This document shows, one piece after another, positions 12,184 through 55,300 of a stretch of 64,000 nucleotides of DNA (the stretch's first letter is position 1; each line of letters starts with the position of its first letter). The notes under the pieces are model-generated. The model made no database searches and had not been told where the DNA came from. It worked only from the letters and a program-made list of their open reading frames with translations. The position numbers were made by a program, and so were the translations under genes. This DNA comes from Agelas oroides (Eukaryota; Porifera; Demospongiae; Agelasida; Agelasidae). The stretch covers positions 10,700,543 to 10,764,542 of the forward strand of contig OX422183.1 of the NCBI GenBank assembly GCA_949130485.1, read 5' to 3'.

Positions 12184-12341
<158 letters not shown>

Positions 12342-12346
12342 CCTAC

Positions 12347-15300: not shown

Positions 15301-16188
15301 GCAAAAACACAGTTTGAGCAATGCTATCGCAAAAACACAGTTTGAGCAATGCTATCGCAAAAACACAGTTTGAGCAATGCTATCGCAAAAACACAGTTTG
15401 AGCAATGCTATCGCAAAAACACAGTTTGAGCAATGCTATCGCAAAAACACAGTTTGAGCAATGCTATCGCAAAAACACAGTTTGAGCAATGCTATCGCAA
15501 AAACACAGTTTGAGCAATGCTATCGCAAAAACACAGTTTGAGCAATGCTATCGCATAAATAACTAAGGAAGGCTTCTAAATTACTGTACGTTCCACATTG
15601 TCAAAAGAATGCGTCTGTCTTGGTACAGCTAATGTAATCTACACTCAACTATAAGAATATTATTTGATCATGCCAGCCTTAAGCTACTCACTATCTATTT
15701 GTGCATCATTGAGGTCCGTTTTCTCTTGTTGTTCCACCTGCTGTTGGTCTGAAACACAAGATAGTATCTAGTTAGTTTTATTTGTGTACATGCACCGTAT
15801 GCACTACTAGTTAAGTGAATATATATACTCTACAGCACATGCAACTAATACACTGTACTTTATCTCACTACCACATGTAAAAATAGCTGATTCTATATTT
15901 TAGTCTCCCATACAATCCTAGAAACAGCTATACTAGCCACATGTATTGCTTCAGTACAAAACATTGCATGCATGTATATGTAGCCTCGTTCTTAGGTCTT
16001 CCAACTAAGGCTCTCCGCCTACACAGGAGAGTGAGGCTAGTATGTATGCACATGCTTATCTAATCTTCTGAGTTTCTGAAATGTGTACGCACAGAAGCGA
16101 TTAGTGTTGCCTACTTGTACACTCTACCATGGCAATCAAAAATTATGTATACCAACAGTGCCTCTACCTGACCTTGACTTGCGGCCAT
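12347..16188 (-). CDS. Death-domain adaptor-like gene, copy A1
   Basis: Exons on the minus strand: 16168-16188 (MAASQ-type start), 15692-15748 (Gln-rich, QQQVEQQEKTDLND), 13932-13958 (27-nt linker), 13435-13736 (death-domain-like, ends at TAA), 12347-12640 (second death-domain-like exon). Apart from the start exon, the joins keep phase 1. The domains show the six-helix death-fold pattern with conserved Trp (VAANWKTLGIEL; VLIQWLGMPGD; VDHWLENS). Such domains bind each other in apoptosis or NF-kB signalling; no enzyme domain is present, so an adaptor role is inferred. The 12347-12640 exon follows the stop, so it is an alternative terminal exon or part of a separate gene starting near 12710. The start exon to its consensus donor is 21 nt, which breaks phase; use of a weak GTCAGG donor (16 nt) would restore it. 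Confidence 0.7.
14781..15556. repeat. 28-bp tandem array, ~28 copies, in a death-gene intron
   Basis: The unit is ACACAGTTTGAGCAATGCTATCGCAAAA, with variants ending CAAGT and two older units with TTTAAGC/TATTGC at the left edge. It lies between the Gln-rich exon and the 27-nt exon. The copy at 29919-30694 has the same length and the same order of variants. Confidence 0.95.
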
Positions 16189-17665
16189 CTCAGGAACACC
16201 TATCCAACCAAAGAGATACGGTTATGGTGGCCACTGCACCAGCATATTATGCATTACATATACACATGGCTCATTCGCTGAAGGCTTCTCATAGAACGCA
16301 GAAGTGGCATGCAGAAATTATGACTACCACTATATCAGCATAACAACTTCCCTCTGAGCTGCTTCAAGTAAGAATAGTGTAGCTACACTCCAAAAAGATG
16401 GGTTATTCTAACCACTGAGTGGTTTATCCTGGTTCCAGACAAGCTGATGAGGAGACAGTGCTTATGAGAAGTTTATTTTGGTATGAGAGGCTAATTGCTT
16501 AAGCTGAGGAAGGGGTTACATCTGCTTGCATTAAAGAGCCAATCATGCATGATCTCGCAGATATAGTAACCACAGAACATATGTCACCAAAAGCATCTGC
16601 AGTGCCTCCCTCACAGAGGTTCTGAGGGATTGTCAGTTGTAAGGTATGATTTGGGCTCAGGTTGAGCCTCATGCACACTGATATACTACAACTCGTACAC
16701 CCAGTGCACGCCAACCACCCTGTTTATCCCACACCCCACAAAACAAACCGTACATACCTGTCAACGTTTAGTAGATTATTTCTAGATTCTTTGAGTTGCA
16801 GCGTACTTACTGTGAATTTGCCAAGGGTAAATAGTCTACTACACTTTCTGATTGTGATGTAGCAGTTGTAACCAGATCTTCGTGGATCTGTACTTGATAG
16901 TTAAGTAAAGATTATACCAATGACAGGCTGTGTGCTGAGGCTACAACACCGCCACACTTTCTAATAACTAGCTGCTCAGGGAGAACACTGAAATGACAGC
17001 TATTCTTTGCATCCTGCAAACAACTCCTTTCAGAAGCTGTCTCATGTAGCTAAGACTTGCACATGAAGCAGCCTTAGTAGACAGTAACTGGCAAACCCTG
17101 ATGCAAAAGCTACATGCATGATCTGCCAAGTACAGTGACAAGCTATGAGTCAACAGTGTGCTGCTTGCTCGGGCTCACCCCACAATGATGAAACATCTCC
17201 CTAGTTATTTATATATTTACCATGCATACATAATACACCTATTCTCTGCAAGCACTATATAGGATGCATGTGTACCTGCTTTGGATCAAGCTCTTTTACT
17301 TGCAGTGTAGTTTCTTGCACTGTTACTGCTACACTCACTGGCTATTGGCTACAGCAAAAATTCAGGGCTGACCTCAGATATCATGAATATGATTGTGTTG
17401 ACCAATCGGGAAGCTGCTGTAGTACATCCCATCTTCATTACCATATTTGGTATGTACCATGCAAATATATACTTGAAACAATCAATGAACCACTGCGTTA
17501 TTGTTATCGTTTTGAACGCACACACCTTCAAAATACCACATAATACTATTTTCACTTTCAGACTGAGCCCAAGCCCAAAGCTCAGGTTTGTTTACTTAAC
17601 AGCCATAAATCCCTGCCTTCCCTGGCCACCTATGCTGTAAATATATCCCACCTGATTGGTCCTTT

Positions 17666-20069
17666 CACAGAAAAAAGAAAGTGTGCTAATCTGACACAAA
17701 AAGTGTGTCAAAAGTGATGTCTCCAGTTTTGACACACCTACACGCATGTCAAATTTTTAGGTGTGTCAAAACTACACATGTGCTAACTGGACAGTGTGCC
17801 AAATTAGTAGTGTGCTATTCAGCAAGTGTGCTAAATAACAAGTGTGTTATTCTACCAATGTGTCAAAATTGGTGTGCAAAATTAGCAGTGTGTCAACTGA
17901 CATGCAGCTGACCCCTCACTTAGTGGGTGGAGCTTTTACATGGAATTTCCAATGAAACACTTGACTGTAAGCAAAATATAATTGTGACATACACTGAGTT
18001 GAAAACATGAATATACTAAAACAAGCAAACAATAGTTATGCTATAACTTACGTTACAGCATTTTATACAAATACGTATGTGATTGAAGTACTACATTGTA
18101 TAAAAATGTGTCAATATACTCTATACATACAAAAATGGCATTCAACTATGCATATAATATACATTTTATGTACCTATCAATCAGTTAGTTGAGTTCAATT
18201 GTTAACATCCATCTGTGAAAGAATAGCACATGCAATAATTATTCATATACTAGTCAGGTCATGCGATAGAGGAACTGCAATCATTCTATTATTCCATTAT
18301 ACAAGTCATGTGGGGCATCTTGGAGGACAAAACAGTAGTGATTATCATACTAGCGCATTGAACTTCCCGCCCTAGCAATGCTCCTACCAGTAGCATTCAT
18401 TTCTCACAGAGGAGTGTTAAATGTCTTCACTAACCCTTTGCATAGTCTAAAGTTGAAGTTAAACGCCCGAAACAGGTCTGTAGAAATGTAATTTTTGTAT
18501 AATTGCTTTCCTTCAATTGCCTTCCAACATGGCAGCATGTGTACTGAAAATATTTCGAAAGTGTGGCAGCTATCATTTCAAATGCAATTCCTCTACCGGG
18601 GTATGTGAAGAAATCACACAGTCAGCATCTCAGAAAGGCTCATCTTGTTTGTTGTTATTCATGCATACATGGAAATCCCTGAACGTAATCACCAGGGATA
18701 AGGCTAGATGTATTAAACATTGTAACCACTCACTTGGCTATGAGCCTCTTCAAGCAGCTGGGGCCTCTGTAGTCAGTTGGTGTAGTGAGGAGAAGTAAAC
18801 AGGCCTGGAAGGTATAGTGGAAGATGGTCATGATACAAACTAGGTTTGCAAATTTAAGAGTACAAAAACGCAAGCACTGGACAATTCCCAACCAGAAGAG
18901 TCATCCACTCAGCAGGTACATTTCAGAAAATACAAGGCCTTGTGTACAACTTATGTTCTCCGCACCTCATTAAGAAATGTACTATGGCTCCCCCCACCCC
19001 CAATCCAGTGCAGAACAAATTAAGGAGGAAGACCTAAATGCAAATTCAGACAACTGCAGTTGTAATAAGTATATAGTACAAGCTTACTTACCAGCAGTTT
19101 AAACCACTTGCAGGGCAGCGTGGAGATTGAACCTTGGTGGCCTGGGTACTTCTGAACAATGAGGCATTAATAGCCTGGAGACAAAGGTCCTGTGTATGGA
19201 TATACAAGTGATGTGAATTAATCATCTGGGGCTTTTAAATAAAAGCTTTTGTTCTCCCTATCTCGTACCTTTCCTCTCTGTGCATATACAGCCTCCAGAA
19301 CCTCCATTCAGAACATGTCTTTGGGAAGGCCGCAGACTCACTCTGTGTACCTATCACCACCACGATCTCTCAGACAAGATCAGTATAGAGGAAGACTAAC
19401 TGGTCTAGCTAGTCTGGTAGTTGGTGGAAGGATGTGAAGGGAACAAGCAGGGAGGTATAAGGTAGAAAGAAAGAAATGACACATTCAACAATATTTCTTT
19501 AGCGACTTTACTACTGCAGTACAACTCTATAGCTAGCTATATGTTTCCTTACGCGGAAATAGCTACTTTAGCTATTTTATATGTAGTAAAAAAAAAGTAC
19601 ATTTATAAATTCATTGACTTTCAGCCACTTCTTACCACGGTGGTGTGAAGTCTCAGCGATGTAACCGCTCCGCACTCCTTGTCACCGAAAGACATTCGCT
19701 CCCGTGGGACATCGAACATGTAAGCCCTCTCCTCCACTAAGCTCAGGTACCATTTTGTTGCTGGCGGAATTTTCACGAACGGATCATATCAAAGAAGACG
19801 AACTTGAAGTGTACGATCGAAGTGAGAAAATGCGAAATGGCGCGTGCCATGTTGCGCACGCGTACAAGGACTGAGCCACGCCCCTGTCATTATTAGCCCC
19901 ACCCTGTTTGCGAGGCTGGCTCCTGTACTTCTACGTATAAGTTTCTGTAACAAAACAGACTCTACATACACGCTACTACCTGTCATGCTGGTTGTTCTCT
20001 CTATACTAAAGCTACAGGAGTTGGAAAAGTTATTGCATGATCATGTATGCTCATGTATGTAATATGAAT
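17666..20069. other. Left part of the 9-kb spacer between the duplicated blocks
   Basis: The first ~240 bases (17666-17900) are crowded with GTGTGCTA and GTGTGTCAAA motifs. The rest is AT-rich with no recognisable gene. A CpG-richer patch at about 19630-19920 stands out. A minus-strand frame there (containing WYLSLVEERAYMFDVPRER, about 19640-19775) reads like protein but has a stop just upstream and no clear start, so it is not called. Confidence 0.6.
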
Positions 20070-23000
20070 CAGGCCTGAAACAGCTACTACTTGACCAAAC
20101 TATACAAAATGGGTATCAAACAGTTCCATTTGATGTGTACCTTCATAATCTGATGTTTGTTTTCATTTTGGTATGAGTGGTTCAAAAATACTCTAGGTAC
20201 AGTTGTGATTTTACCACTTGTACATAACGGTTACTTGTAACTAACAACTTCAGGCCCGAAACAGCTAATACTTGACCAAACTATACCAAATGGGTATCAA
20301 ACAGTTCCATTTGGTGTGTACATTCATAATCTGATGTTTGTTTTCATTTTGGAGTAAGTGTTCTGAAAATTGTGTGGGTACGATTGTGGTTTTACCAACG
20401 TATCAGTTAGTTGTAACTAACAATTTCAGGCCCGAAACAGCTAATACTTGACCAAACTATACAAAATGGGTATCAAACAGTTCCATTTGATGTGTACCTT
20501 CATAATCTGATGTTTGTTTTCATTTTGGTATGAGTGGTTCAAAAATACTCTAGGTACAGTTGTGATTTTACCACTTGTACATAACGGTTACTTGTAACTA
20601 ACAATTTCAGGCCCGAAACAGCTAATACTTGACCAAACTATACCAAATGGGTATCAAACAGTCCCATTTGGTGTGTACATTCATAATCTGATGTTTGTTT
20701 TCATTTTGGAGTAAGTGTTCTGAAAATTGTCTGGGTACGGTTGTGGTTTTACCACTTGTACATATCGGTTAGTTGTAACTAACAATATCATCCATGAAAC
20801 AGACAATACTTGACCAAACCAGACAGAATGGGTATCAAATAGTTCCATTTGATGTGTACATTCATAATCTGATGTTTGTTTTCATTTTGGGGTAAGTTGT
20901 CTGAAAATTGTGTGGGTACGATTGTGGTTTTACCAACGTATCGGTTAGTTGTAACTAACAATTTCAGGCCCGAAACAGCTAATACTTGACCAAACTATAC
21001 AAAATGGGTATCAAACAGTTCCATTTGATGTGTACCTTCATAATCTGATGTTTGTTTTCATTTTGGTATGAGTGGTTCAAAAATACTCTAGGTACAGTTG
21101 TGATTTTACCACTTGTACATAACGGTTACTTGTAACTAACAATTTCAGGCCCGAAACAGCTAATACTTGACCAAACTATACCAAATGGGTATCAAACAGT
21201 CCCATTTGGTGTGTACATTCATAATCTGATGTTTGTTTTCATTTTGGAGTAAGTGTTCTGAAAATTGTCTGGGTACGGTTGTGGTTTTACCACTTGTACA
21301 TATCGGTTAGTTGTAACTAACAATATCATCCATGAAACAGACAATACTTGACCAAACCAGACAGAATGGGTATCAAATAGTTCCATTTGATGTGTACATT
21401 CATAATCTGATGTTTGTTTTCATTTTGGGGTAAGTTGTCTGAAAATTGTGTGGGTACGATTGTGGTTTTACCAACGTATCGGTTAGTTGTAACTAACAAT
21501 TTCAGGCCCGAAACAGCTAATACTTGACCAAACTATACAAAATGGGTATCAAACAGTTCCATTTGATGTGTACATTCATAATCTGATGTTTGTTTTCATT
21601 TTGGTATGAGTGGTTCAAAAAGAGTGTAGGTGCGGTTGTGATTTTACCACTTGTACATATCGGTTACTTGTAACTAACAATTTCAGGCCCGAAACAGCTA
21701 ACACTTGACCAAACTATACAAAATGGGTATCAAACAGTTCCATTTGATGTGTACATTCATAATCTGATGTTTGTTTTCATTTTGGAGTAAGTGTTCTGAA
21801 AATTGTCTGGGTGCGGTTGTAGTTTTACCACTTGAACATATCGGTTACTTGCAACTAACAATATCATCCATGAAACAGACAATACTTGACCAAACCAGAC
21901 AAAATGGGTATCAAATAGTTCCATTTGATGTGTACATTCATAATCTGATGTTTGTTTTCATTTTGGGGTAAGTTGTCTGAAAATTGTGTGGGTACGATTG
22001 TGGTTTTACCAACGTATCGGTTAGTAGTAACTAACAATTTCAGGCCCGAAACAGCTAATACTTGACCAAACTATACAAAATGGGTATCAAACAGTTCCAT
22101 TTGATGTGTACATTCATAATCTGATGTTTGTTTTCATTTTGGTATGAGTGGTTCAAAAAGAGTCTTGGTGCGGTTGTGGTTTTACCACTTGTACATATCG
22201 GTTACTTGTAACTAACAATTTCAGGCCCGAAACAGCTAACACTTGACCAAACTATACAAAATGGGTATCAAACAATTCCATTTGGTGTATACATTCATAA
22301 TCTGATGTTTGTTTGCATTTTGGAGTAAGTGTTCTGAAAATTGTCTGGGTACGGTTGTGGTTAACCACTTGTACATATCGGTTAGTTGTAACTAACAATA
22401 TCATCCATGAAACAGACAATACTTGACCAAACCAGACAGAATGGGTATCAAATAGTTCCATTTGATGTGTACATTCATAATCTGATGTTTGTTTTCATTT
22501 TGGGATAAGTTGTCTGAAAATTGTGTGGGTACGATTGTGGTTTTACCAACGTATCGGTTAGTTGTAACTAACAATTTCACGCCCGAAACAGCTAATACTT
22601 GACCAAACTATACAAAATGGGTATCAAACAGTTCCATTTGATGTGTACATTCATAATCTGATGTTTGTTTTCATTTTGGTATGAGTGGTTCAAAAAGAGT
22701 CTTGGTGCGGTTGTGGTTTTACCACTTGTACATATCGGTTACTTGTAACTAACAATTTCAGGCCCGAAACAGCTAACACTTGACCAAACTATACAAAATG
22801 GGTATCAAACAATTCCATTTGGTGTATACATTCATAATCTGATGTTTGTTTGCATTTTGGAGTAAGTGTTCTGAAAATTGTCTGGGTACGGTTGTGGTTA
22901 ACCACTTGTACATATCGGTTAGTTGTAACTAACAATATCATCAATGAAACAGACAATACTTGACCAAACCAGACAGAATGGGTATCAAACAGTCCCATTT

Positions 23001-26000
23001 GGTGTGTACATTCATAATCTGATGTTTGTTTCCATTTTGGAGTAAGTGTTCTGAAAATTGTGTGGGTACGATTGTGGTTTTACCAACGTATCGGTTAGTT
23101 GTAACTAACAATTTCAGGCCCGAAACAGCTAATACTTGACCAAACTATACAAAATGTGTATCAAACAGTTCCATTTGATGTGTACATTCATAATCTGATG
23201 TTTGTTTTCATTTTGGTATGAGTGGTTCAAAAAGAGTGTAGGTGCGGTTGTGATTTTACCACTTGTACATATCGGTTAGTTGTAACTAACAATATCATCC
23301 ATGAAACAGACAATACTTGACCAAACCAGACAAAATGGGTATCAAACAGTTCCATTTGGTGTGTACATTCATAATCTGATGTTTGTTTCCATTTTGGAGT
23401 AAGTGTTCTGAAAATTGTGTGGGTACGATTGTGGTTTTACCAAGGTATCGGTTAGTTGTAACTAACAATTTCAGGCCCGAAACAGCTAATACTTGACCAA
23501 ACTATACAAAATGGGTATCAAACAGTTCCATTTGATGTGTACATTCATAATCTGATGTTTGTTTTCATTTTGGTATGAGTGGTTCAAAAAGAGTCTTGGT
23601 GCGGTTGCGGTTTTACCACTTGTACATATCGGTTACTTGTAACTAACAATTTCAGGCCCGAAACAGCTAATACTTGACCAAACTATACAAAATGGGTATC
23701 AAACAGTTCCATTTGATGTGTACATTCATAATCTGATGTTTGTTTTCATTTTGGTATGAGTGGTTCAAAAAGAGTCTTGGTGCGGTTGTGGTTTTACCAC
23801 TTGTACATATCGGTTACTTGTAACTAACAATTTCAGGTCCGAAACAGCTAATACTTGACCAAACTATACAAAATGGGTATCAAACAATTCCATTTGGTGT
23901 ATACATGCATAATCTGATGTTTGTTTGCATTTTGGAGTAAGTGTTCTGAAAATTGTCTGGGTACGGTTGTGGTTTTACCACTTGTACATATCGGTTAGTT
24001 GTAACTAACAATATCATCCATGAAACAGACAATACTTGACCAAACCAGACAGAATGGGTATCAAACACTTCCATTTGGTGTGTACATTCATAATCTGATG
24101 TTTGTTTTCATTTTGGAGTAAGTGTTCTGAAAATTGTGTGGGTACGATTGTGGTTTTACCAACGTATCGGTTAGTTGTAACTAACAATTTCAGGCCCGAA
24201 ATAGCTAATATTTGACCAAACTATACAAAATGGGTATCAAACAGTTCCATTTGATGTGTACATTCATAATCTGATGTTTGTTTTCATTTTGGTATGAGTG
24301 GTTCAAAAAGAGTCTTGGTGCGGTTGTGGTTTTACCACTTGTACATATCGGTTACTTGTAACTAACAATTTCAGGCCCGAAACAGCTAACACTTGACCAA
24401 ACTATACAAAATGGGTATCAAACAGTTCCATTTTATGTGTACATTCATAATCTGATGTTTGTTTTCATTTTGGTATGAGTGGTTCAAAAAGAGTCTTGGT
24501 GCGGTTGTGGTTTTACCACTTGTACATATCGGTTACTTGTAACTAACAATTTCAGGCCCGAAACAGCTAATACTTGACCAAACTATACAAAATGGGTATC
24601 AAACAATTCCATTTGGTGTATACATTCATAATCTGATGTTTGTTTGCATTTTGGAGTAAGTGTTCTGAAAATTGTCTGGGTACGGTTGTGGTTTTACCAC
24701 TTGCACATATCGGTTAGTTGTAACTAACAATATCATCCATGAAACAGACAATACTTGACCAAACCAGACAGAATGGGTATCAAACAGTTCCATTTGGTGT
24801 GTACATTCATAAACTGATGCTTTTTTTCATTTTGGAGTAAGTGTTCTGAAAATTGTGTGGGTACGATTGTGGTTTAACCAACGTATCGGTTAGTTGTAAC
24901 TAACAATTTCAGGCCCGAAACAGCTAATACTTGACCAAACTATACAAAATGGGTATCAAACAGTTCCTTTGATGTGTACATTCATAATCTGATGTTTGTT
25001 TTCATTTTGGTATGAGTGGTTCAAAAAGAGTGTAGGTGCGGTTGTGATTTTACCACTTGTACATATCGGTTACTTGTAACTAACAATTTCAGGCCCGAAA
25101 CAGCTAATACTTGACCAAACTATACCAAATGGGTATCAAACAGTTCCATTTGGTGTGTACATTCATAATCTGATGTTTGTTTTCATTTTGGAGTAAGTTT
25201 TCTGAAAATTGTCTGGGTGTGGTTGTGGTTTTACCACTTGTACATATCGGTTAGTTGCATGTAACTAACAATATCATCCATGAAACAGACAATACTTGAC
25301 CAAACCAGACAAAATGGGTATCAAACAGTTCCATTTGGTGTGTACATTCATAAACTGATGTTTTTTTTCATTTTGGAGTAAGTGTTTTGAAAATTGTGTG
25401 GGTACGATTGTAGTTTTACCAACGTATCGGTTAGTTGTAACTAACAATTTCAGGCCCGAAACAGCTAATACTTGACCAAACTATATAAAATGGGTATCAA
25501 ACAGTTCCATTTGATGTGTACATCCATAATCTGATGTTTGTTTTCATTTTGGTATGAGTGGTTCAAAAAGAGTGTAGGTGCGGTTGTGATTTTACCACTT
25601 GTACATATCGGTTACTTGTAACTAACAATTTCAGGCCCGAAACAGCTAACACTTGACCAAACTATACAAAATGGGTATCAAACAGTTCCATTTGATGTGT
25701 ACATTCATAATCTGATGTTTGTTTGCATTTTGGAGTAAGTGTTCTGAAAATTGTCTGGGTACGGTTGTGGTTAACCACTTGTACATATCGGTTAGTTGTA
25801 ACTAACAATATCATCCATGAAACAGATAATACTTGACCAAACCAGACAAAATGGGTATCAAACAGTTCCATTTGGTGTGTACATTCATAATCTGATGTTT
25901 GTTTTCATTTTGGAGTAAGTGTTCTGAAAATTGTGTGGGTACGATTGTGGTTTTATCAACGTATCGGTTACTTGTAACTAACAATTTCAGGTCCGAAACA

Positions 26001-26240
26001 GCTAATACTTGACCAAACTATACAAAATGCGTATCAAACAGTTCCATTTGGTGTGTACATTCATAATCTGATGTTTGTTTTCATTTTGGTACGAGTGGTT
26101 CAAAAAGAGTCTAGGTACGGTTGTGATTTTACCACTTGTACATATTGGTTACTTGTAACTAACAATTTCAGGCCCAAAACAGCTAATACTTGACCAAACT
26201 ATACAAAATGGGTATCAAACAGTTCCATTTGGTGTGTACA
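20070..26240. repeat. Satellite array of ~181-bp monomers, about 34 copies
   Basis: Monomers start with CAGGCCCGAAACAGCTAATAC or the variant CATCCATGAAACAGACAATAC and contain CATTCATAATCTGATGTTTG and GTAACTAACAAT. At the left, monomer types follow a ~541-bp three-monomer order (compare 20427, 20967 and 21507). Further right the order is looser. No coding function: the repeating ~69-residue minus-strand frames are shadows of the monomer. Confidence 0.95.
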
Positions 26241-26659
26241 ATCACAATCAATCACATATTATACCAATATTTCCATTGCATGACAAGCATCTGAGTCTGA
26301 TCATATACACAAACTATCACAAGTGTGTCCCATGCAGTTGTTGTGTTAGTGTGCTGATCATGATGAGAAACTAGCACACGTGGTGTGTCATACAGTTTTG
26401 GTGATGAGGAACTAGCACATGTAGTGTGTCATACAGTTTTGGTGATGAGGAACTAGCACATGTGGTGTGTCAAACCGAGGGTGCTAATAGGGAAATTAGT
26501 GCTTGCATGTGTTAATATGTTATGTAGCACAGCAGAACATGCCATTTTAGCACACTCCAGTGCTGGATTTGACCGTTTAGTGTGTTAAAGATATACAATA
26601 GCACACTCTGTGCTTATTTGGCACACCAGTTTCACCCAAATAGCACACCAGTTTTTTTT
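26241..26659. other. Right end of the spacer, with inverted GTGTGCTA motifs
   Basis: TAGCACAC, AACTAGCACA and GTGTGTCATACAG motifs recur. The terminal TAGCACACCAG plus poly-T at 26641-26660 is the inverse of the poly-A plus GTGTGCTAA start at 17666-17690. This suggests that 17666-26659 is, or was, one element with inverted ends. Confidence 0.6.
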
Positions 26660-27319
26660 TCGCAGGTGTAATTTTCTAGGGTAATGAGGTTGACATGTGG
26701 ATTGCCTGTTGTGACCTGTTAGATCTGGTAACTGGGGTTGTAAGGTGATCTTGCTTGGCAATTATCTTATGAGAGTTGACACCGTGACATCAAGCTGACC
26801 TGGTGACAGTTGATCTGATGACAGTTGAGAATTGATCTCGTGAGAAGGAGCCATGAGGAGACATGGGGTAATTGACATATGACTATGATATGTGTACATA
26901 ATACAATATTGCACATCAGTATAAAAAATAGTTGACCAAATGTCTCCAAACAAAAAACAATCTTGCTACCAGTCCGTTCCTCTTAATAAGTTTCTTGATA
27001 CTTTGAACATGAGGTATTTATTTACCCCCTTTTTTTGTAACAACAATTTTCTTTCCTGTGAGGAACAAGGAGATAAACTAGTGAGAGTGACCCAGACAGT
27101 CTGGGGAATTTGTCGTATGCAGCAATGTACCTGAACATCAGGTAGCTGTTAGTAAACACAATCAATCACGTCAATATCTGGGTCAAACATTACTTTGTGT
27201 ATTTTGGAGGATGTGCACATGCCATACCTACAGCTGTCCAGCTGATTTCCAGATACATTACCTCATGTGAATGCTATTGTGTAGCTAATCACACTCATGC
27301 ATGACTGCCCACATGCATA

Positions 27320-27479
<160 letters not shown>

Positions 27480-27484
27480 CCTAC

Positions 27485-30400
27485 TCTCATATTCTCCCTT
27501 CAACTTGTCTGCTAGCTTTCTATAGCCAATCTCTTTCAAGCTCTCCACAAGAATATCTGGTGTGTGATCACCCGGCATTCCTAGCCATTGGATGAGGACT
27601 TCACGAAGGTACCGCCTTACATCGTGGCCACCAGCTTCAACTTCAAACTCCCTGATCGTGCCTGGTGAGATACTCAACTGTATTCCAACAGCATGGTACT
27701 GTGCTGCAACTTGTCTCAACTCTTGCATAACAAGTTTTAGTTTCTTGGGGCTGTTGAGGTCTGGGGCCGACAGCAGGTCTGTAAAACGAGTTGGGTACAT
27801 GTACATACCTTTACAGTGACTGAAAGGGCACATCCACCACTTCTGCACATCAAGTACATGACATTGTGTATAATGGCATTAAAAGGTCTAGAGATTTCAA
27901 TACACTCATTCAACAACTACTACAGTGGAACCCCTCTATAGCTGACACCATCAGGAATGAATGAGGTGTTCCTAAATCATGCAGGGGCTTCTGGTACATT
28001 TCTGGTAGGTGTGGTATGCATAATTGGGCTGTTCAGCACAATGCAGCCAGGTTTTTAGAGCTTTCCCTTGCTATACATACTTATATACACTATGTATACA
28101 CTGGCAGAGAAGGCAAACCAGAAGGCTAGTACTATGAGTAACAGCACTAATGTCAAGCTGTTAACTCAAGCAGCAATGTGGGCAATCTTGCGAAAAAGGT
28201 TGATGAGTGTCTGCTAATCTGGCTTGTTAAGTACTGTTTGTGTACAATAGGGAATGCAAAAAGTTTCTGTTATACAGAGTAGTGGGATGTCTGCTATTCA
28301 GGGGTTGCTGAAGTGAATGAAAGAACAGGAAGGACTTTCAGAAAGTGTTCATTATATCACTATTGAGGGGTGTCCACTAAGCAGGGTTCCACTGTTGCTA
28401 TATAGGACCAGCTGAGATTCTGAGAGCTTTGATAGCTGATCATTCAAAATATGCAGAAGAGAATTTGGCCATTACTAATGCAAAGCTCCTCCAATTTGAT
28501 GACCAATATAGACTCTTTGTCACAATATTATATATATGCTTAAAAAGTGGGTGAAACTGCATGTATTAATTATTAGTGTAATTTTATTTTATGTTCTAAC
28601 TCCACCAATGACAAACCTTCGGGTAACTCATTTGCTTGGCGTCTGTGCCCCACTGCTTCAAGGACTTCCTTGACGACTTCCCCTGTGGGTGGCCTTGTTG
28701 AGTTTTCGAGCCAGTGATCTACAACTTTTTGGAGGCATGCCTGCGCCTTGCCGTCTTCCCCAGTGAATAGAGCACCAATTGCCCTCAACTCTTCCATTGG
28801 AACCTCCAGTTCTATCCCCAATGTCTTCCAGTTTGCTGCCACTGGCTTTAAATCATTTATCAAGCAGCGAAGCTCTGCATGTAAGAAGTAATATATATAT
28901 CCAATCCTACTATACGTAACTATATCAAGAGTTTCTAAAGGTATTTATCATAAAACTTGTTGCTTGTTGAATGTCTACATGTAGTAGCTAGGATGGTATA
29001 TGGAAAGCCTGGGTAACAATAGGGGAAGTTTGTGTGTATGACTCTTTGTTTGCAAAGTGCAAAACCTACCAACACAATCCTGTGCTTCATCAGCTCCTAG
29101 TGCATGGAACAAGCAAAAAGTGTGTTAGCAGTTGAAAGGTTCTCTGTTTACTTCAATACAGGACATGTACCTGGTACTGACACAAATCATGGAGTGGAAC
29201 AAAACTAGAGGTGACACACAGCTATATAGCTGTGAACTATTAGTGTCCATTATTCATTGCTGATGTCCAGCAACCAAACTCTGGGAAAGGTGTGGCTGAT
29301 GATGGCATGCATGGAATGCATGGTTGCATTACCAGTTGATCTGTTTTAACAACATAGTATTTTGTATTGTTTGTGGTCTCTGCATGTGGTAGCCTCATTC
29401 CCAGGCTCTCCCTTTACCCTAATGTTTGTATTTTTCATTGGTGGCAAGGGCCTTGGAACAAGGCTACTCTGTGACTTCAAATAAAACTTTTACCCATATA
29501 ATTATAGTTTAGTATAAACACCCAGCAACCAAACCAATGTTAGCCTCATATTCCTTTTCCCCTAGGAACAATGCCTGTGATTAAATTTGATTGATCTGTT
29601 TCAGCTAACAACAAAGTTAACCATTTCCCATCTTACAATTATTTTGACTTCAATTGGATCTTCTATCTCTATGTTGATCTATGATTGTCACACTTACACA
29701 GACATTCTCAAAGTGAATGCATTATAAGTATGTTCAAAGTCTGTATATGCCTGGTCTCTGTCATATCTGAGTTGTTGACCGTATCAAGCGGTGGAGAATA
29801 TTACTGGAAACATGGAGAATAGAGCTACTTTGGTCTCTATCAGGACATATATATCTTTTGATGTTAGGAACAATGCCTGTGATTAAATTTGGTTGATGTG
29901 TTTCAGCTAACAACACAGTTTAAGCAATGCTATTGCAAAAACACAGTTTAAGCAATGCTATTGCAAAAACACAGTTTGAGCAATGCTATCGCAAAAACAC
30001 AGTTTGAGCAATGCTATCGCAAGTACACAGTTTGAGCAATGCTATCGCAAGTACACAGTTTGAGCAATGCTATCGCAAAAACACAGTTTGAGCAATGCTA
30101 TCGCAAAAACACAGTTTGAGCAATGCTATCGCAAAAACACAGTTTGAGCAATGCTATCGCAAAAACACAGTTTGAGCAATGCTATCGCAAGTACACAGTT
30201 TGAGCAATGCTATCGCAAAAACACAGTTTGAGCAATGCTATCGCAAAAACACAGTTTGAGCAATGCTATCGCAAGTACACAGTTTGAGCAATGCTATCGC
30301 AAAAACACAGTTTGAGCAATGCTATCGCAAAAACACAGTTTGAGCAATGCTATCGCAAAAACACAGTTTGAGCAATGCTATCGCAAAAACACAGTTTGAG

Positions 30401-31326
30401 CAATGCTATCGCAAAAACACAGTTTGAGCAATGCTATCGCAAAAACACAGTTTGAGCAATGCTATCGCAAAAACACAGTTTGAGCAATGCTATCGCAAAA
30501 ACACAGTTTGAGCAATGCTATCGCAAAAACACAGTTTGAGCAATGCTATCGCAAAAACACAGTTTGAGCAATGCTATCGCAAAAACACAGTTTGAGCAAT
30601 GCTATCGCAAAAACACAGTTTGAGCAATGCTATCGCAAAAACACAGTTTGAGCAATGCTATCGCAAAAACACAGTTTGAGCAATGCTATCGCATAAATAA
30701 CTAAGGAAGGCTTCTAAATTACTGTACGTTCCACATTGTCAAAAGAATGCGTCTGTCTTGGTACAGCTAATGTAATCTACACTCAACTATAAGAATATTA
30801 TTTGATCATGCCAGCCTTAAGCTACTCACTATCTATTTGTGCATCATTGAGGTCCGTTTTCTCTTGTTGTTCCACCTGCTGTTGGTCTGAAACACAAGAT
30901 AGTATCTAGTTAGTTTTATTTGTGTACATGCACCGTATGCACTACTAGTTAAGTGAATATATATACTCTACAGCACATGCAACTAATACACTGTACTTTA
31001 TCTCACTACCACATGTAAAAATAGCTGATTCTATATTTTAGTCTCCCATACAATCCTAGAAACAGCTATACTAGCCACATGTATTGCTTCAGTACAAAAC
31101 ATTGCATGCATGTATATGTAGCCTCGTTCTTAGGTCTTCCAACTAAGGCTCTCCGCCTACACAGGAGAGTGAGGCTAGTATGTATGCACATGCTTATCTA
31201 ATCTTCTGAGTTTCTGAAATGTGTACGCACAGAAGCGATTAGTGTTGCCTACTTGTACACTCTACCATGGCAATCAAAAATTATGTATACCAACAGTGCC
31301 TCTACCTGACCTTGACTTGCGGCCAT
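27485..31326 (-). CDS. Death-domain adaptor-like gene, copy A2
   Basis: Same exons as copy A1 shifted by 15138: 31306-31326, 30830-30886, 29070-29096, 28573-28874 (ends TAA), 27485-27778. All coding frames compared give the same protein as copy A1. It shares the phase problem of the start exon and the out-of-order second death-domain exon. Its role is inferred as for copy A1; nothing in the sequence shows which copy is expressed. Confidence 0.7.
29919..30694. repeat. 28-bp tandem array, copy in A2
   Basis: Same unit, copy number and order of CAAGT/CAAAA variants as the array at 14781-15556. Confidence 0.95.
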
Positions 31327-32803
31327 CTCAGGAACACCTATCCAACCAAAGAGATACGGTTATGGTGGCCACTGCACCAGCATATTATGCATTACATATA
31401 CACATGGCTCATTCGCTGAAGGCTTCTCATAGAACGCAGAAGTGGCATGCAGAAATTATGACTACCACTATATCAGCATAACAACTTCCCTCTGAGCTGC
31501 TTCAAGTAAGAATAGTGTAGCTACACTCCAAAAAGATGGGTTATTCTAACCACTGAGTGGTTTATCCTGGTTCCAGACAAGCTGATGAGGAGACAGTGCT
31601 TATGAGAAGTTTATTTTGGTATGAGAGGCTAATTGCTTAAGCTGAGGAAGGGGTTACATCTGCTTGCATTAAAGAGCCAATCATGCATGATCTCGCAGAT
31701 ATAGTAACCACAGAACATATGTCACCAAAAGCATCTGCAGTGCCTCCCTCACAGAGGTTCTGAGGGATTGTCAGTTGTAAGGTATGATTTGGGCTCAGGT
31801 TGAGCCTCATGCACACTGATATACTACAACTCGTACACCCAGTGCACGCCAACCACCCTGTTTATCCCACACCCCACAAAACAAACCGTACATACCTGTC
31901 AACGTTTAGTAGATTATTTCTAGATTCTTTGAGTTGCAGCGTACTTACTGTGAATTTGCCAAGGGTAAATAGTCTACTACACTTTCTGATTGTGATGTAG
32001 CAGTTGTAACCAGATCTTCGTGGATCTGTACTTGATAGTTAAGTAAAGATTATACCAATGACAGGCTGTGTGCTGAGGCTACAACACCGCCACACTTTCT
32101 AATAACTAGCTGCTCAGGGAGAACACTGAAATGACAGCTATTCTTTGCATCCTGCAAACAACTCCTTTCAGAAGCTGTCTCATGTAGCTAAGACTTGCAC
32201 ATGAAGCAGCCTTAGTAGACAGTAACTGGCAAACCCTGATGCAAAAGCTACATGCATGATCTGCCAAGTACAGTGACAAGCTATGAGTCAACAGTGTGCT
32301 GCTTGCTCGGGCTCACCCCACAATGATGAAACATCTCCCTAGTTATTTATATATTTACCATGCATACATAATACACCTATTCTCTGCAAGCACTATATAG
32401 GATGCATGTGTACCTGCTTTGGATCAAGCTCTTTTACTTGCAGTGTAGTTTCTTGCACTGTTACTGCTACACTCACTGGCTATTGGCTACAGCAAAAATT
32501 CAGGGCTGACCTCAGATATCATGAATATGATTGTGTTGACCAATCGGGAAGCTGCTGTAGTACATCCCATCTTCATTACCATATTTGGTATGTACCATGC
32601 AAATATATACTTGAAACAATCAATGAACCACTGCGTTATTGTTATCGTTTTGAACGCACACACCTTCAAAATACCACATAATACTATTTTCACTTTCAGA
32701 CTGAGCCCAAGCCCAAAGCTCAGGTTTGTTTACTTAACAGCCATAAATCCCTGCCTTCCCTGGCCACCTATGCTGTAAATATATCCCACCTGATTGGTCC
32801 TTT

Positions 32804-33229: not shown

Positions 33230-34880
33230 CTAACGTTGTGGCATTTTTTTGCTTAGTTTTTTGTAGATTTCGTTCAGCAGCTGTTTTTCGTCAATGCGTC
33301 TTGACTCCAGAGCCTCTGCAACTTTCTCCCAAGTGTAAGCTGATGTCATTCCATTATGCCACTGGTCAAACACTTGAGTGAAGCATCCCCTTAGCCATTG
33401 TGACTCGCTAGCTTGCATTGCCTCCAAATCTGCTGGTCTCACTCCTACGAATCTCCCAAATTGCTTCCACTTGCTTGGTATTTCAGCCCCAACATATTCA
33501 CACAAATCTCGAATGTTAGGCTTGCCGAATGTTTGAAAATCTGCAGAGCAATGGATGAAATTTAAGTGATATTGTTTGGTTTGTGACTAAAGTGAAGCTC
33601 TTGCACATACCTTCCGGAGTAAGATCTTTACTTGGAGCTGCAGTGGAAATGTATGAAGAGTCAGGTTACACTTCAATGCTCACTTTTTGTACCAACAGTG
33701 AAAATTTGATGTATATGCTGTACATTAGGTACATTAGGTATGGTATTATGCATCACATGGCATAATATTCTGAGTCAGTTGTGTGTACTTAATATGTATG
33801 TTCCATGTCATAATGGCAATTGTATCTGTAGTACCTATCTCATGTCTAACTGGTTAGTAACTTCAGAATACCATATATCTTAGACATGCATGGATTCAAT
33901 GCCACTTTTGTGTCATAATTTGCGCAGCAACTTTGCTAATTCTACATATATGTATGATTTCATGATATATAGTTATTGACCTTAGTAAGTAACTCAGGCT
34001 GGAGGAATAATGTTCACACAGTAACAAATATATAGCTATAAGATTTTTCTAAAATATACCTGCTTCTGTTTTTGCTGCAAGTTTCATATAGAGCTTTGTC
34101 TGCAGCCATTTTGCATCGACATCACTCGACTCCAGAGCCTCTGCAACTTTCTCCCAAGTGTAAGCTGATGTCATTCCGCTGTGCCACTTGTCAAACACTT
34201 GAATAAAGCCATTCGTCTCCCTTGGCCGGCCAGCTTTTATGGCTCTCAGATCCCCCCGTCTCACTCCTACAAATATCCCAAACTCCTCCCACATGTCTGG
34301 TATTTCAGTCCCAACATACTCACACAAGTCTCGGAGGTTAGGCTTGCCAAACCTTTGAAAATCTGCAGATCAGTGGACGGGGATATTGATCAGTGGTTAA
34401 ATTGCAAAGAGTATAAACTCACTCACCTTTTGAAGTAATATTTTCCCCTGTACCTGCAGTGAAAAGTGCACAAGAGCCAGATTTACAATCACCTGCACCA
34501 GTATACTGTAGACATTAGATGTTGTATGCAATTTTACAGTGTTGCAGTGTACAGTATGGTACTGTTTAACGCATATCATACGACACATTGGTATTAGTAC
34601 CCCACGAAGGAAAATGCATGCAATTAGAAACAGTTCACAGTTCATATTCCCCCCCTCATGGAAATGGCGCTGTCCCCATTAATTCAAACAATTTGTCTGC
34701 TTATTACATCCTTCAGTCATCTGTTTGTCTTCAGGATCATGGAATAATCAATTTTTCAAATTTACACTCAACTATAAGCGCGTATATTATTTGATCATGC
34801 TAGCCACTCACTATCAATTTGTGCTTCATTGAGGTCTGTTGTCTCTTGTTGTTCCATCTGTTGTTCCATCTGTTGTTGGT
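33230..34880 (-). CDS. Death-domain gene B (two death-domain cassettes)
   Basis: Minus-strand exons, all joining in phase 1: 34812-34880 (Gln-rich, QQQMEQQMEQQETTDLNEAQ), 34427-34453 (27-nt linker TGENITSK), 34060-34362 (death-domain-like, CEYVGTEIPDMWEEFG ... AYTWEKVAEALES), 33611-33637 (27-nt linker PSKDLTPE), 33230-33540 (second death-domain-like exon, stop TAG at 33230-33232). The two domains share GMTSAYTWEKVAEALES, so one exon arose by duplication of the other. The Gln-rich exon is a paralog of the one in genes A1/A2. No catalytic domain was seen, so an adaptor role through death-domain contacts is inferred. The start exon lies upstream in the inverted repeat at 35605-35853. Confidence 0.75.
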
Positions 34881-35604
34881 CTGAAATAAAATATAGCTAG
34901 TACTGTAATCTCCAAAATTAGAGTCACCCTCAAAAATAGTTGCAAGACCACCCTCTTCTTTGAATGAATGTACAAATGGTCTTTTTCGCTCAAACGTACA
35001 CCCTAGCCCCATTCGTAAGTTTTGCAGTATCAAAAACTGGGGCCAGGGAAGGTCTGTGAGCATACATCAAACCATTTATATGCTGTAGAACATGCAGTTG
35101 TGTCAAACAAGCCATTGAAGAAAAACAGCGCTGTGAAAGTGGTGAGACTAACAAATGAAGGCAGGAGAGCCCTGATTAATAAAAGCTGTAGATTAATTGT
35201 GTGTGAGTTGGGGAAGGGGGGTTGGATTGAAATATCCTAACTCTCTCTCAAAAAAAAAAAAAAAACACTTTGAAGAGTTGCTGAGTTCATTACCCATGGA
35301 CGTATTTTAGAAGATTATGGCAGCTATACTATAGGTAGCTGTACCTATACCTGTACCATATGTACTACAAAAATATAATCTACTGATACTGCTTCCACTT
35401 TTGCCCATATACACTAACCATTTCTATGGTTTAGTAACCTATACATACAATCCTAGAGACAGCTACACTAGCCACATGTACAGTCGCCATTGTTTCAGTA
35501 CTAAAGTAGTATATATCCTTGTTCCCAGGCTCTCTCTCTACATATATAGCGGCGGGAGACTGGGAATGAGGCTAGTTTGTGTGCTCATGTTCATCTAATC
35601 CTCT
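34881..35604. other. First intron of death-domain gene B
   Basis: Holds a poly-A run at 35250-35265 and a TTGTTCCCAGG/CTGGGAATGAGGCTA hairpin at 35513-35575, matching the position of the hairpin in the same intron of gene A. No coding signal. Confidence 0.6.
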
Positions 35605-35853
35605 GTGAACCACTGAATGCATAAGCACCTATTCAGTTCAGAATTATTATCACAGTAGTATTGTATACTCTACCATGGCAACCAGGTGTACCAACGTGTA
35701 TCTACCAGCTGGTTGGATAGGTTTCCTGAGATGGCTGCACATCAAGATACAGGTAGATGCATGTTGGTACACCTGGTTGCCATGGTAGAGTATACAATAC
35801 TACTGTGATAATAGTTCTGAACTGAATAGGTGCTTATGCATTCAGTGGTTCAC
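35605..35853. repeat. 101-bp inverted repeat enclosing a flipped start exon
   Basis: Arms 35605-35705 and 35753-35853 match at 98 of 101 positions. The 47-bp loop contains, on the + strand, ATGGCTGCACATCAAGATACAG followed exactly at the arm border by GTAGATGC. This is the counterpart of gene A's start exon, which lies on the minus strand like the rest of gene A. In gene B it therefore points opposite to its own gene. Read on the minus strand, the loop also offers ATGTGCAGCCATCTC... ending in phase 1 at a GTAGAT donor. Confidence 0.9.
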
Positions 35854-37617
35854 TGCATCAGCAAATACTGTTATACCCATATTATCATTCATTTCCTGCA
35901 AAGCACTAGGATTTAGTATGTGTACCTGTTTCAGAGCTCTTATAATTGCGCTGTAGTCTTCTTATCTCACCCAAGCTCACTGGTTATTGGCAACACTGTT
36001 GTTAAGTACGCCCCACAAAACGATCGGCTGACATCAGTGGTATGACCTTGTAAAAATTGTGAATATTATTTGTTGACCACACCGGAAGCTACTAATCATT
36101 GCCATATTTGGTCATATGTGTGGTAATCTGCAATATTGTTTACACTGCAGTTTTGGAACCTGTTGCAGGCGTATACTGCATTGCTGAAGCACAAATCACA
36201 TGTACAAACACATGATCTGCCCTAGCAATGAGACACTTGTGACACATTCAGGTAGAAGTTTAGCCTCGTTCCACCCACGCATAAGAGACTTGAATGAAGT
36301 TAGTAAAAGTTGTAATTTGTATTCAAGCTGTTTTATGTAAAGTATTTCATCACTAGTATCTCATCACTAGTTATTCACTAATGACCAAGAACCAACTTTA
36401 ATTGGAGAAGACTGCATGATGGCAATATGCATGGTCTGCACACACAAGTACAAGTTCATGTTTCGCCAAAGCTACAGCTATAGATAGTATTGCACACCAC
36501 ACCCTTCACAGAGAGGAAGGGTCTGGTCATGCTGCAACTAACGAATTGTCGCTGAGGAACACAATTATTGAACAGCGCAGTTAGATAATAAGAGCTGACA
36601 TCCGCTAAACACGTTGTGATGGGGGGTTAATTATGTAGCCATGCATGCTACGTATGCACAGTCATACATTAAGCCATTATTATATAGCAGAAAGCAAACT
36701 GGTTTATCTAAGGCTACAATTCTTTAGTAATAATGCAACATCTAAGGGGGGAAAGAAAACTCTACCATGACACATACACAAACACAACATGGTATACTCA
36801 CTGGTGGTAGATGTGGATTCAGATACATTGACTGTCTCTTCCACTCTCCATCAGTGACCACAATACAGACAGTTGTAACTGACAGAAATTTCACCACTGC
36901 AGAGCACATACTTGCTGTATATGGACAAAATACACAGTAGCACAGTACATCAATACTGATGCAAGGCTGAGTCTTGGTATTCCCCACTCTATAATAACAA
37001 TACCAACAACTGGGCATTAGGACCATTCATAAAATATACGTATTACAGTTTAATGCAATCTTCTCCTCTTTAGTTGTGAGAACACCATCACAACCTTTAT
37101 AACTTTATGCGTTGGAGGCGATAGTAGGAACTCATGAACGGTGCCGTTTTGCCCCGAGAGGGAATACTGTTGTTTATTTACATGTTCTTCAATTTCACCC
37201 TAAAAAAGACAACTGAAGCATTCAGTTGAAGCATCAGCAGAATTTCAAGTTGGTAAAAGTGAACCTTGTTTCCATTTATGGATTCAGCTGCAGGGATTAC
37301 TAGTCAGATGCTCTTACTCTTAAGCCACACAGAGCAGGCAGAAGAGCAGATCGATGACAAGTTACATAATTCCCACAGAGACCTTAGAGTTCATATCATA
37401 CTGCCAACGGAAAAGATGCTGCCCAGGGCATGTGGTTTCTGCCATGGGACTGCAACAACAGGGTGCATTTTTCAATGTATGAGTCTTCAACCCTCATGCA
37501 CTCACGGAGGCCTTCAGATATTCCTGTTGCAGATCACTCCAATCTTGAATAAGGTGCAGTGATTGTGGGGAGAATAGGTATAAAAGGCAAGGCTTTGTGA
37601 TAGCTACTTCACTCAAA
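35854..37617. other. Promoter-side region of gene B and unassigned sequence
   Basis: About 35880-36150 is similar to the region upstream of gene A's start exon (17250-17460), so it is likely the 5' flank of gene B. A possible minus-strand exon at 36802-36896 has a good acceptor (CTCTGCAG), donor (GTGAGTAT) and an open 31-codon frame (VVKFLSVTTVCIVV...), but no family is recognised and no partner exon was found. A + strand frame at 37266-37562 has no recognisable similarity. Confidence 0.4.
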
Positions 37618-52300: not shown

Positions 52301-55300
52301 CGATTCATTCTATTGCTGGTGGAAGGTCAAACCTAGAATGGTGCATGTGCAATACCACAGCATACAATAGTGTGCATGGTCAGGTGAGTTACACCCCAAG
52401 ATGCAACTTAAAGGACCCGCGTAATATAATATAATATAACTAACTAATATAATACACAGGCCAGAGGAAGCGTTGGACATCCAATCTGAGTTGATATTCG
52501 TTAATGGCATGGTGCACTTACCCCAGGAATGAAACTTTGGTACACCGACAACTCTCCCTTCACCAACTACACCACTGTCACCCCTCACAGCGACTCCCGA
52601 AGCGCTTATGTGACGTCACACGTTCAATATACCTACGTATAAAATCATTGCGTGTATTGAGCGCGCTACTGTGCTTCGGGCTGATATTACGCGCGTAATG
52701 CGCGCGAGTATGAAGCATGCCTCGCTATTCACGATTTGATAAACAGTGATGTCTGGCTCCTCCCTTGAGGGTAAAGCTTTTTTAAGAAGCCACAAAACTC
52801 TAAGTCTTCCTACTTCAGCTAAATTTGCAGCACAAGACCCTGATCTATTAAGCCTTCTACTTCAGGTCTTGTAGCTAAGTAGCAGTGAACTTTTTCCCCT
52901 AAAGCCTACTAACAAAGATTTTACCTACGTATAGCACTGAACTCTAAAGTGTTCGAGCCAAGCCTTCCGTGAGCATCTTGGGGTGTGGTTACTTTGCTCG
53001 TATGAATATAAATTTTAGGTGGTTGGTGCAGTCGTTCTTATTAACCCTCGGCGCGCATGCGCGAGAGGGTTACAGTAGTTGTCCTGTGTGTCTGTGTGTG
53101 TCCGTTTTCTCTATTCTGCCTTCTCGCGCTTTTAGGCGTCCAACGAGAGGTATTAGCGGCTACAGCGCGGAAAATGCAGTAAAATTAAAAAGCCGTTTTC
53201 TCTAAAACTGCTTAGTTCAAAAGTTAGAAGCGTTATAAACTTACCGCGACTAAGTCAGCCATTTTCTTCACGTGCAATGTTTCTGTATACCTCTCCGTAA
53301 CACGTACGTAACGGTAATGTGTGATCATGTGAGTTGGAGCACGTGGTTTTTCCGTCTAACTCTAATAGACGTTTGTGACTGTCTTTTACGAGAGGTTCAG
53401 AAAGGTATGCTCACAGTGTAATACCGTAGATTAGGTCTATGCGTCTGAGAAAGGAATGCCCACAGTGTAATACCGTAGTGCACGTGAAGAGGTCAGTTTG
53501 TGACTGTGGCCGTGCCTTCGCATCGAAGAAAAGGAAAGCACAGTGTACTGCTGTTGGGGAGCCTGAGAACGCAATGAAACGTAGAAAAACCTTACTGTCT
53601 GAGGAAGAGTTATTAGTGACGAAAGAGAGAGACAAAGTCCCCAAAGTGAGTAAGAGAGCTTCTGAAACATGTGAGCAGACTTTGCACAGGCAAGAACAGA
53701 ACCAAACACATCTAGCTTGTGCCGAGGGTTCTGCACTTCAGTGCTGTTCATTAACCCTCGGCGCGCATGCGCAGCGAGGGTTACAGTACTTGGTCTGTGT
53801 GTGTGTGTGTCTGTCTGTGTGTCTGTTACTCAACATCTCACTTTTCACGTGTTTATTCGTGCCACAAACGATACTAACCTTCTTGGCGGCAGATGAAGGT
53901 CGAAAATTTTAAGCGATTTTCTCTGAAAATGCTTCGTTGCGAAGCTAGAGCATTTCCTGTATGTACGGCATGCGGCTACACGATAAGTCGGCCATTTTTT
54001 TACTCCGCGGAAAACGCGCATGCGTATGAATCTGGACCACGTGGCTAGCGGCGGAGAGACGTTCATTGCGGCGAGTTCGCCATTGGCGGTAAATATGCCT
54101 CCAACAAAGGTATGCCCGCAGTGTAAAGCTGCTGTGCTTGTAAGATGGAAGACATGTGAGCGCTGTGATCATGTCTTTCGATCCAAACGAAAAGCAGAGT
54201 GTAATTTGCGAGAGAAAGCTATGATAGTGCTAAAGATAAGTTGCACAAGGCCTGTGAAAGAGCGTCAGAAATTCGTGAGCGAACTTTGCATAGGCAGGAA
54301 GAAAACAGAATGTGCATGGCAAGCATGAGAGAGTCACGAGGCAGTGATTGATTCTAGTCAACACACAAGTAAAATCACATGCACTGCTGCGCTGAGGGTT
54401 TGGCACTTCAGTGCCTTTCATTTTTATAGGAATCACTTCAACTGTATCACCCCAACTACCATCAGGCCCTCCCACTTTTGGTGCTGAAGGCAGAGTCAGT
54501 ATAACTGTGATCATCCCAGGTGAAGAAACATTTTTCAAGTCACTGTAAAAAATACATATTTTCCTGCCATCTCTATTGCACCAGCATGACACATTATCAG
54601 AAGTCCAAGCAATGATTCTTAACTAGTAAGTTTTCTTGAAAGTCCATGCAGCAACACTGTAAAAACATTTGGTTTACTTCAACCATATTATGGTCATCTC
54701 AGTTGCATGCCTGTTGTGTACGTGACACTTTACAAACTTCAAGGGATGCTTCCAATTGATTGAAAGCTTAAGTGTAGTTGGGACGCTTCTCCTTTTTGTT
54801 AACTTAGGATCTTCTTGCAGAAAGGCTAACTATTTGACTACATTCCTGGATAACCATGCAACCAAGGAACTCCTCCAGGGGCGGATGTGTAGGATCTAAG
54901 AAACACCAAACCTTACCAGAAATGCTGATTTATAGGCTTTCTGCAAGATGATCCTAATCTAACAAAAGGGAGAAGCTTCTAAACTACACTTTGATTCAAA
55001 TTGTAAGCATCCCTTGATGATGTTCATAGCTAATGTTTCACTTACACAACAGGCATGCAACTGAGATGACCAAAATATGGTTGAAGTAACCCAAATGTTT
55101 TTAAAGTGAAGGAGCTTCTTTAGTTAAATCCGTCTCTTCTTTCAGAATACCTATTTGGCTATATTCCTGGCATTTTTTCCAAAATACCAAGACAACCCTG
55201 CGAGAGCAGCAAAGACAAACTTCTTTCAGATATAATTTGGCATCTCATGACATGTCATGCACACACGTGTAACTGAGGATGACTTTGAAGTAACAAAATA

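Follow-up and report, generated by a model that had tools for sequence, protein, structure and literature searches.

A 102-bp hairpin with an inverted loop at the 5' end of a death-like-domain gene in the sponge Agelas oroides, probably left by a single template switch

Inverted repeats left by template switches, or inversions of the loop between such repeats, are on record from apes, yeast genes, RNA hairpins and plastids (PMC7954356; PMC8604942; PMC8794818; PMC12928735). In the four-point template switch mutations set out in PMC7954356, a nearby segment is copied backwards, an inverted repeat is left, and the collinear flank returns; according to that account, template switching implicitly yields nearby perfect inverted repeats, and intra-strand events are tied to a point 2 that precedes point 1. 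A point 2 ahead of point 1 would then point to an inter-strand switch. As described for hairpins in RNA genes, a forward inter-strand switch whose source spans the loop leaves the loop inverted (PMC8794818). Spacers reversed between inverted arms are reported from yeast coding genes, with consequences for the protein, as in SPO75 and YBZ1, where the flip gives two amino-acid forms (PMC8604942). Primate microinversions with flanking inverted repeats likewise reverse a short segment between repeats, and for many microinversions the authors prefer microhomology-mediated break-induced replication over template switching (PMC8755829). Small inversions in plastids place the loop of a stem-loop in flip-flop orientations (PMC12928735, citing earlier work), while recurrent nuclear microinversions in birds are described as unlinked to stem-loops (PMC3123225).

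The locus described here, at the 5' end of a sponge gene that we call gene B, is like these cases in its backwards-copied segment, its inverted loop and a proposed point 2 ahead of point 1. Unlike the four-point events of PMC7954356, its copied fragment of about 147 nt lies over a candidate start exon, and its ancestral state is read from a paralogue and not from a sister species. Its arms of 102 bp and loop of 45 nt, known from one genome and in one orientation, contrast with the arms of 10-16 bp and spacers of 2-5 bp compared across many yeast strains (PMC8604942), with RNA-gene loops of typically 4 nt and sometimes 7-8 nt in structural RNAs (PMC8794818), with primate microinversions of 17-33 nt, many with short imperfect repeats (PMC8755829), and with organellar inversions of 5-50 bp between shorter arms, repeats of 11-24 bp (PMC12928735). 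Given these precedents, we regard the mechanism as one already known, and arm length together with position over a candidate start exon as what stands out.

The hairpin and the gene around it

The window analysed is a stretch of 64,000 nucleotides of the Agelas oroides genome. It carries gene B on the minus strand and, also on that strand, two copies of a related gene, here gene A. The features on which the argument turns are as follows.

35605..35706, plus strand: left arm, in its ancestral place and orientation, on the intron 1 side of gene B
35707..35751, minus strand: loop of 45 nt, inverted relative to gene A
35752..35853, minus strand: right arm, an inverted copy of the left arm, complementary at 99/102 positions
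35851..35866, plus strand: putative switch-back point, where A-like upstream sequence seems to resume (a short match, supported by its position)
34812..34880, minus strand: exon 2 of gene B, entered and left in phase 1; its 69 nt exceed the gene A counterpart by 12 nt and contain two in-frame ATGs
34427..34453, minus strand: gene B mini-exon, 27 nt, CTGCAG acceptor and GTGAGT donor
34060..34362, minus strand: gene B exon of 303 nt with the first death-like domain; a profile built with three relatives finds CRADD in the PDB (E 0.011)
33611..33637, minus strand: second gene B mini-exon, 27 nt, CTGCAG acceptor and GTATGT donor
33230..33540, minus strand: last exon of gene B, with the second death-like domain and the stop; PF00531 at E 0.0046, under the curated cut-off
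15692..15748, minus strand: exon 2 of gene A copy 1, 57 nt, with no in-frame ATG

The preliminary description was right that an inverted repeat is present but slightly misjudged its size, giving arms of 101 bp with 98 matches around a 47-bp loop; the arms are 102 bp each, paired at 99 positions and mismatched at three (35644, 35696 and 35699), and the spacer is 45 nt. Folded as single-stranded RNA, the repeat reaches -184.1 kcal/mol, whereas shuffled sequences average -61.2 (z -28.4); none of 200 shuffles equalled its value, and it is therefore not due to chance. A scan that admitted inverted repeats from 40 bp in length and 85% in identity upwards, with spacers of at most 600, found four in the window, and the one at 35605-35853 is the only one above 95%. 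The window also holds a 106-bp pair at 88% identity (1131-1236 and 1427-1532) and a 78-bp pair at 92% (54655-54732 and 55031-55108). The same scan returned three inverted repeats in 157,191 bases from other loci, some of which overlap one another, and 36 in 81,578 bases from 26 loci that entered the sample through a dispersed repeat and are biased for that reason. One of the latter (L036) has a 114-bp pair at 99% identity whose spacer is 313 nt, as well as a perfect 45-bp pair set 3 nt apart; thus other near-perfect hairpins exist in this genome. Gene A copy 1 (15400-17600) has no comparable repeat, just two pairs of 24 and 21 nt at 75-76% identity and more than 1.1 kb apart.

When the inverted repeat was used as a query against the 259-Mb genome, in a search that skipped very common words and scored the best candidates alone, four matches were reported: two at its own locus and one, partial, in each copy of gene A. 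A MITE or other dispersed inverted-repeat element is not supported, since the reported matches are confined to these loci. Elsewhere in the window, 36485-36619 belongs to a dispersed repeat whose ends are inverted and which has 37 further places among the 40 candidates scored out of 657. Mitochondrial COX1 gives two matches on one contig (G000:C141:13976-14659 and 15891-16550) about 1.2 kb apart, as if split by an intron, and reads TGA as Trp; its protein has a demosponge-like appearance.

From its 69-nt exon 2 onward, gene B consists of two 27-nt mini-exons, one on either side of an exon of 303 nt, and a terminal exon whose end lies at 33230. The last four exons have CTGCAG acceptors, the four donors from exon 2 onward begin with GT, and all joins are in phase 1. 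Its two repeated domains are 61% identical. The Pfam Death model (PF00531) scores 17.5 bits against the exon at 33230-33586, below the curated cut-off of 22.6, and gives no match to the exon at 34049-34369; among four family members only one has a Death match at E <=0.05 (best 0.0032), and one gene A exon exceeds the cut-off at 25.7 bits. In a PDB profile search with the family, CRADD was found at E 0.011 and 0.012 and CT610 at 0.089. Because the Death match in gene B is absent or below the cut-off while the family profile leads to the death domain of CRADD, 'death-like' seems a fair name for the gene B domains. The death-like exons look constrained by the NG86 method, with dN of 0.23-0.24 and dS of 0.46-0.67 over three pairs, and with less contrast by YN00 (dN 0.27-0.28, dS 0.37-0.49); for exon 2, with 18 codons, NG86 and YN00 contradict each other and the ratio was not used. 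A protein begun at an exon 2 ATG would have 241 residues. The two in-frame ATGs of exon 2, which sit where gene A has GTG, suggest that gene B may not need the loop.

Genes A and B have a common 5' module that comprises exon 2, the loop region and the blocks between them. In DNA searches with the 5' regions of both genes, no places other than gene B and the two copies of gene A were reported to carry it (in one search, among the 40 candidates scored out of 657, of which 37 were the dispersed repeat), and exon 2 peptide searches in the retrieved loci found nothing convincing outside the window. The nearest relative of the gene B death-like domains, a paralogue on C21, differs in its 5' part and has no counterpart of the loop region by blastn. 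Judged by eye and not with a predictor, it carries a signal-peptide-like exon and a transmembrane exon before the death-like domain. A copy of that signal-peptide-like exon (C21:6867378-6867663) lies upstream of gene B at 36758-37020, where gaps of 13, 1, 1 and 1 nt break its frame. It appears from these remains that gene B swapped a receptor-type start for an A-like 5' module.

The two gene A copies, with their flanks (11524-17665 and 26660-32803), span 6.1 kb at 99.97% identity, so that one of them may have arisen by duplication very recently or may be a duplicate created in assembly. Between them lies a satellite-like array (20069-26249) of about 34 units of 181 bp, and just downstream of exon 2 in each copy is a 28-bp tandem repeat of 28 copies (14774-15559 and 29912-30697).

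Comparison with gene A and the proposed template switch

Gene A is the only outgroup, available as two near-identical copies and as a paralogue rather than the same gene in a sister species. On the plus strand, the left flank of the hairpin (35564-35605) matches gene A 16029-16070 at 35/42 positions (E 6e-7), and the core of the left arm (35661-35684) matches 16115-16138, also forward (E 3e-4). The loop and the inner right arm (35710-35797) align with the minus strand of gene A (16210-16115) in one piece at 80% identity (E 5e-17 / 8e-18). The junction between loop and right arm would thus be old, and that between left arm and loop new. Beyond the right arm, 35851-35866 matches gene A 16232-16247 on the plus strand at 14/16 positions, with an E of 6.7 on its own, and this gene A stretch lies just upstream of the candidate start exon of gene A; farther upstream, blocks shared by A and B are weak (E 3e-4 and 0.001). 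The global alignment score of gene B against gene A is 79 for the unaltered sequence. Removing the right arm raises it to 95, re-inverting the loop raises it to 126, and the two changes together give 151, so that a template switch explains the locus better than a linear alignment in terms of raw alignment scores.

These alignments make it probable that one short template switch during DNA replication built both the hairpin and the inverted loop. The growing strand would have passed along the left arm as far as about 35706 (point 1), and would then have jumped ahead, on the opposite strand, to the far edge of the start-exon region (point 2). From there it would have copied backwards through the loop and then the arm as far as point 3. 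It would have rejoined its original template at point 4, a short way upstream of the former start exon, with a loss of about 20 nt as judged from gene A. On the ancestral sequence the switch points would be ordered 3-1-2-4, and the product would read left arm, inverted loop, inverted arm and normal upstream sequence, that is, a 102-bp hairpin with the former start-exon region reversed in its loop. The contiguous inverted copy and the left side in place are observed; the short match past the right arm suggests a return to A-like sequence, and we infer from these that there was one event and in which direction it ran. Short matches are present at both jumps, GTGGTTCAC against gene A GTGGCCAC at the outer one and GTATCT at the inner one; they would fit a microhomology-guided switch but are suggestive only. 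The state of gene B before the event is seen solely through gene A, which is about 80% identical in the better blocks, and the jump points are therefore uncertain by several bases. Template switching and microhomology-mediated break-induced replication cannot be told apart at this locus.

The preliminary description had offered a one-time snapback rearrangement as its fallback, and this is now the better reading, because a single template switch accounts for the inverted copy formed by loop and right arm, for the left side in place and for the A-like sequence that, from a short match, seems to resume. The same end product would result if the arm had first been duplicated in inverted form, leaving the loop as it was, and the loop had been turned around between the arms in a second event at a later time, which was fixed once. 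Spacer inversion between pre-existing arms is documented in the yeast work (PMC8604942), and the three arm mismatches leave room for elapsed time, but an extra event is required where a single switch already gives the inverted loop and both junctions, and we consider this order of events unlikely. A foldback artefact of sequencing or assembly is a different matter. Foldback chimeras can generate inverted copies, but the arms here differ at three sites, the loop is inverted instead of repeated and the collinear flank seems to resume, which together leave an artefact only a very slight chance. We keep the single switch as the preferred origin. The arms differ at 3/102 positions and genes A and B at about 17-20% in the better aligned blocks, and so genes A and B would have separated long before the rearrangement, unless homogenisation has since kept the arms alike.

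The candidate start exon in the loop

In the preliminary description the loop held a start exon usable in either orientation, and recombination between the arms would flip it and exchange one N-terminus (MAAH) for another (MCSH). Three candidate exons bear on this proposal.

35731..35752, plus strand: candidate ancestral start exon, ATGGCTGCACATCAAGATACAG followed by GTAGAT, 22 nt, phase 1; on the strand opposite to gene B and homologous to the gene A ATG (16188 / 31326)
35706..35742, minus strand: alternative start exon of the preliminary description, MCSHLRKPIQPA, 37 nt, phase 1; no independent support
16168..16188, minus strand: candidate start exon of gene A copy 1, 21 nt to GTAGAG in phase 0, or 16 nt to GTCAGG in phase 1

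A sequence check bears out the reading of the loop itself: the 22-nt exon on the plus strand and the 37-nt exon on the minus strand both end in phase 1 before GTAGAT and are in frame with exon 2 at 34812-34880. The claim that gene A preserves the ancestral phase-1 form was not confirmed, for in both copies the exon from the candidate ATG (16188 in copy 1, 31326 in copy 2) to the matching donor is 21 nt and in phase 0. Joined to exon 2 in copy 1, the 21-nt exon runs into a stop within exon 2, and an open reading requires another donor (16 nt, AAG then GTCAGG) or an acceptor shifted inward by 8 or 11 nt.

Across the window, 391 of 1728 46-mers that precede G|GT contain an open phase-1 ATG (23%), as do 32% of 20,000 random sequences drawn from the dinucleotide transitions of the loop, which are not exact shuffles; a usable reversed strand is thus unremarkable. 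Positions -3 and +4 are both G at the old start and both T at the reversed one. The right arm contains an upstream ATG (ACCATGG) whose frame closes at a TGA overlapping the present sense-strand ATG. In the A-B alignment, counted by eye, 17/22 columns of the exon are identical against 21/22 in the 22 columns upstream, and so the candidate exon gives no sign of coding constraint. The donors GTAGAT and GTAGAG are weak and by definition fail a stricter scan that demands G at donor position +5, which finds two other candidates in gene A and three in gene B.

On this evidence the loop may once have been a start exon, which gene B has since lost, or it may never have been coding. The latter, in which the loop is 5' flank or intron of both genes and gene B starts in exon 2 or an unrecognised exon, we hold to be quite plausible without favouring it. 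It would accommodate the out-of-frame gene A exon at the matching donor, the weak donors, the lower A-B agreement in the exon columns than upstream and the in-frame ATGs of gene B exon 2; against it, gene A, with its candidate start at ATGGCCGCAAG, has no in-frame ATG in exon 2 and so needs a start upstream, and both genes retain an ATGGC whose -3 and +4 positions are G. As a likely consequence of the switch, which we put at about even odds, gene B would have been deprived of its old start on the sense strand and would now begin at an exon 2 ATG or in another exon. The hairpin may or may not lie within the gene B transcript.

An exon that still flips, in the germ line or in the body, by recombination or template switching between the arms would be a further property added to any of these origins; a non-coding loop and a flipping one can each coexist with a template-switch origin, and the degrees of confidence given here are not all exclusive. 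The arms are long, close together and 97% identical, either orientation gives an open phase-1 exon ending at GTAGAT, and near-identical arms around a spacer are a known substrate for spacer inversion, with flips of such spacers in coding genes documented between yeast strains (PMC8604942). The one assembly examined has a single orientation, though, and the genome matches reported are the two at gene B and one in each copy of gene A. By chance, the reversed strand would be usable in 23-32% of cases, and the same donor at both sides follows from the arms being copies of each other. With T at both -3 and +4, the present sense-strand ATG is poorly placed as a start; the ACCATGG of the right arm lies upstream of it, and exon 2 offers in-frame ATGs. 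We accordingly think a flipping start exon highly improbable, and hold out equally little hope for the wider notion of a live hairpin, in which flipping of the loop within the population or the body would let a nuclear gene of an animal, with death-domain-like products, alternate two N-termini, or an in-place and a reversed start exon. A narrow search of part of the literature found no published account of an animal nuclear gene whose coding start exon is invertible. The locus looks like the result of a single mutation of a familiar type, and nothing so far points to a functioning switch.

The gene B hairpin is thus a fairly clear and fairly young case, in an early-branching animal, of one replication slip that would have produced a 102-bp hairpin and a reversed candidate start exon together. 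If the exon is real, a single slip can switch off or replace the start of a gene in one step. The gene B locus also offers a ready test of whether long arms allow an animal exon to flip once more.
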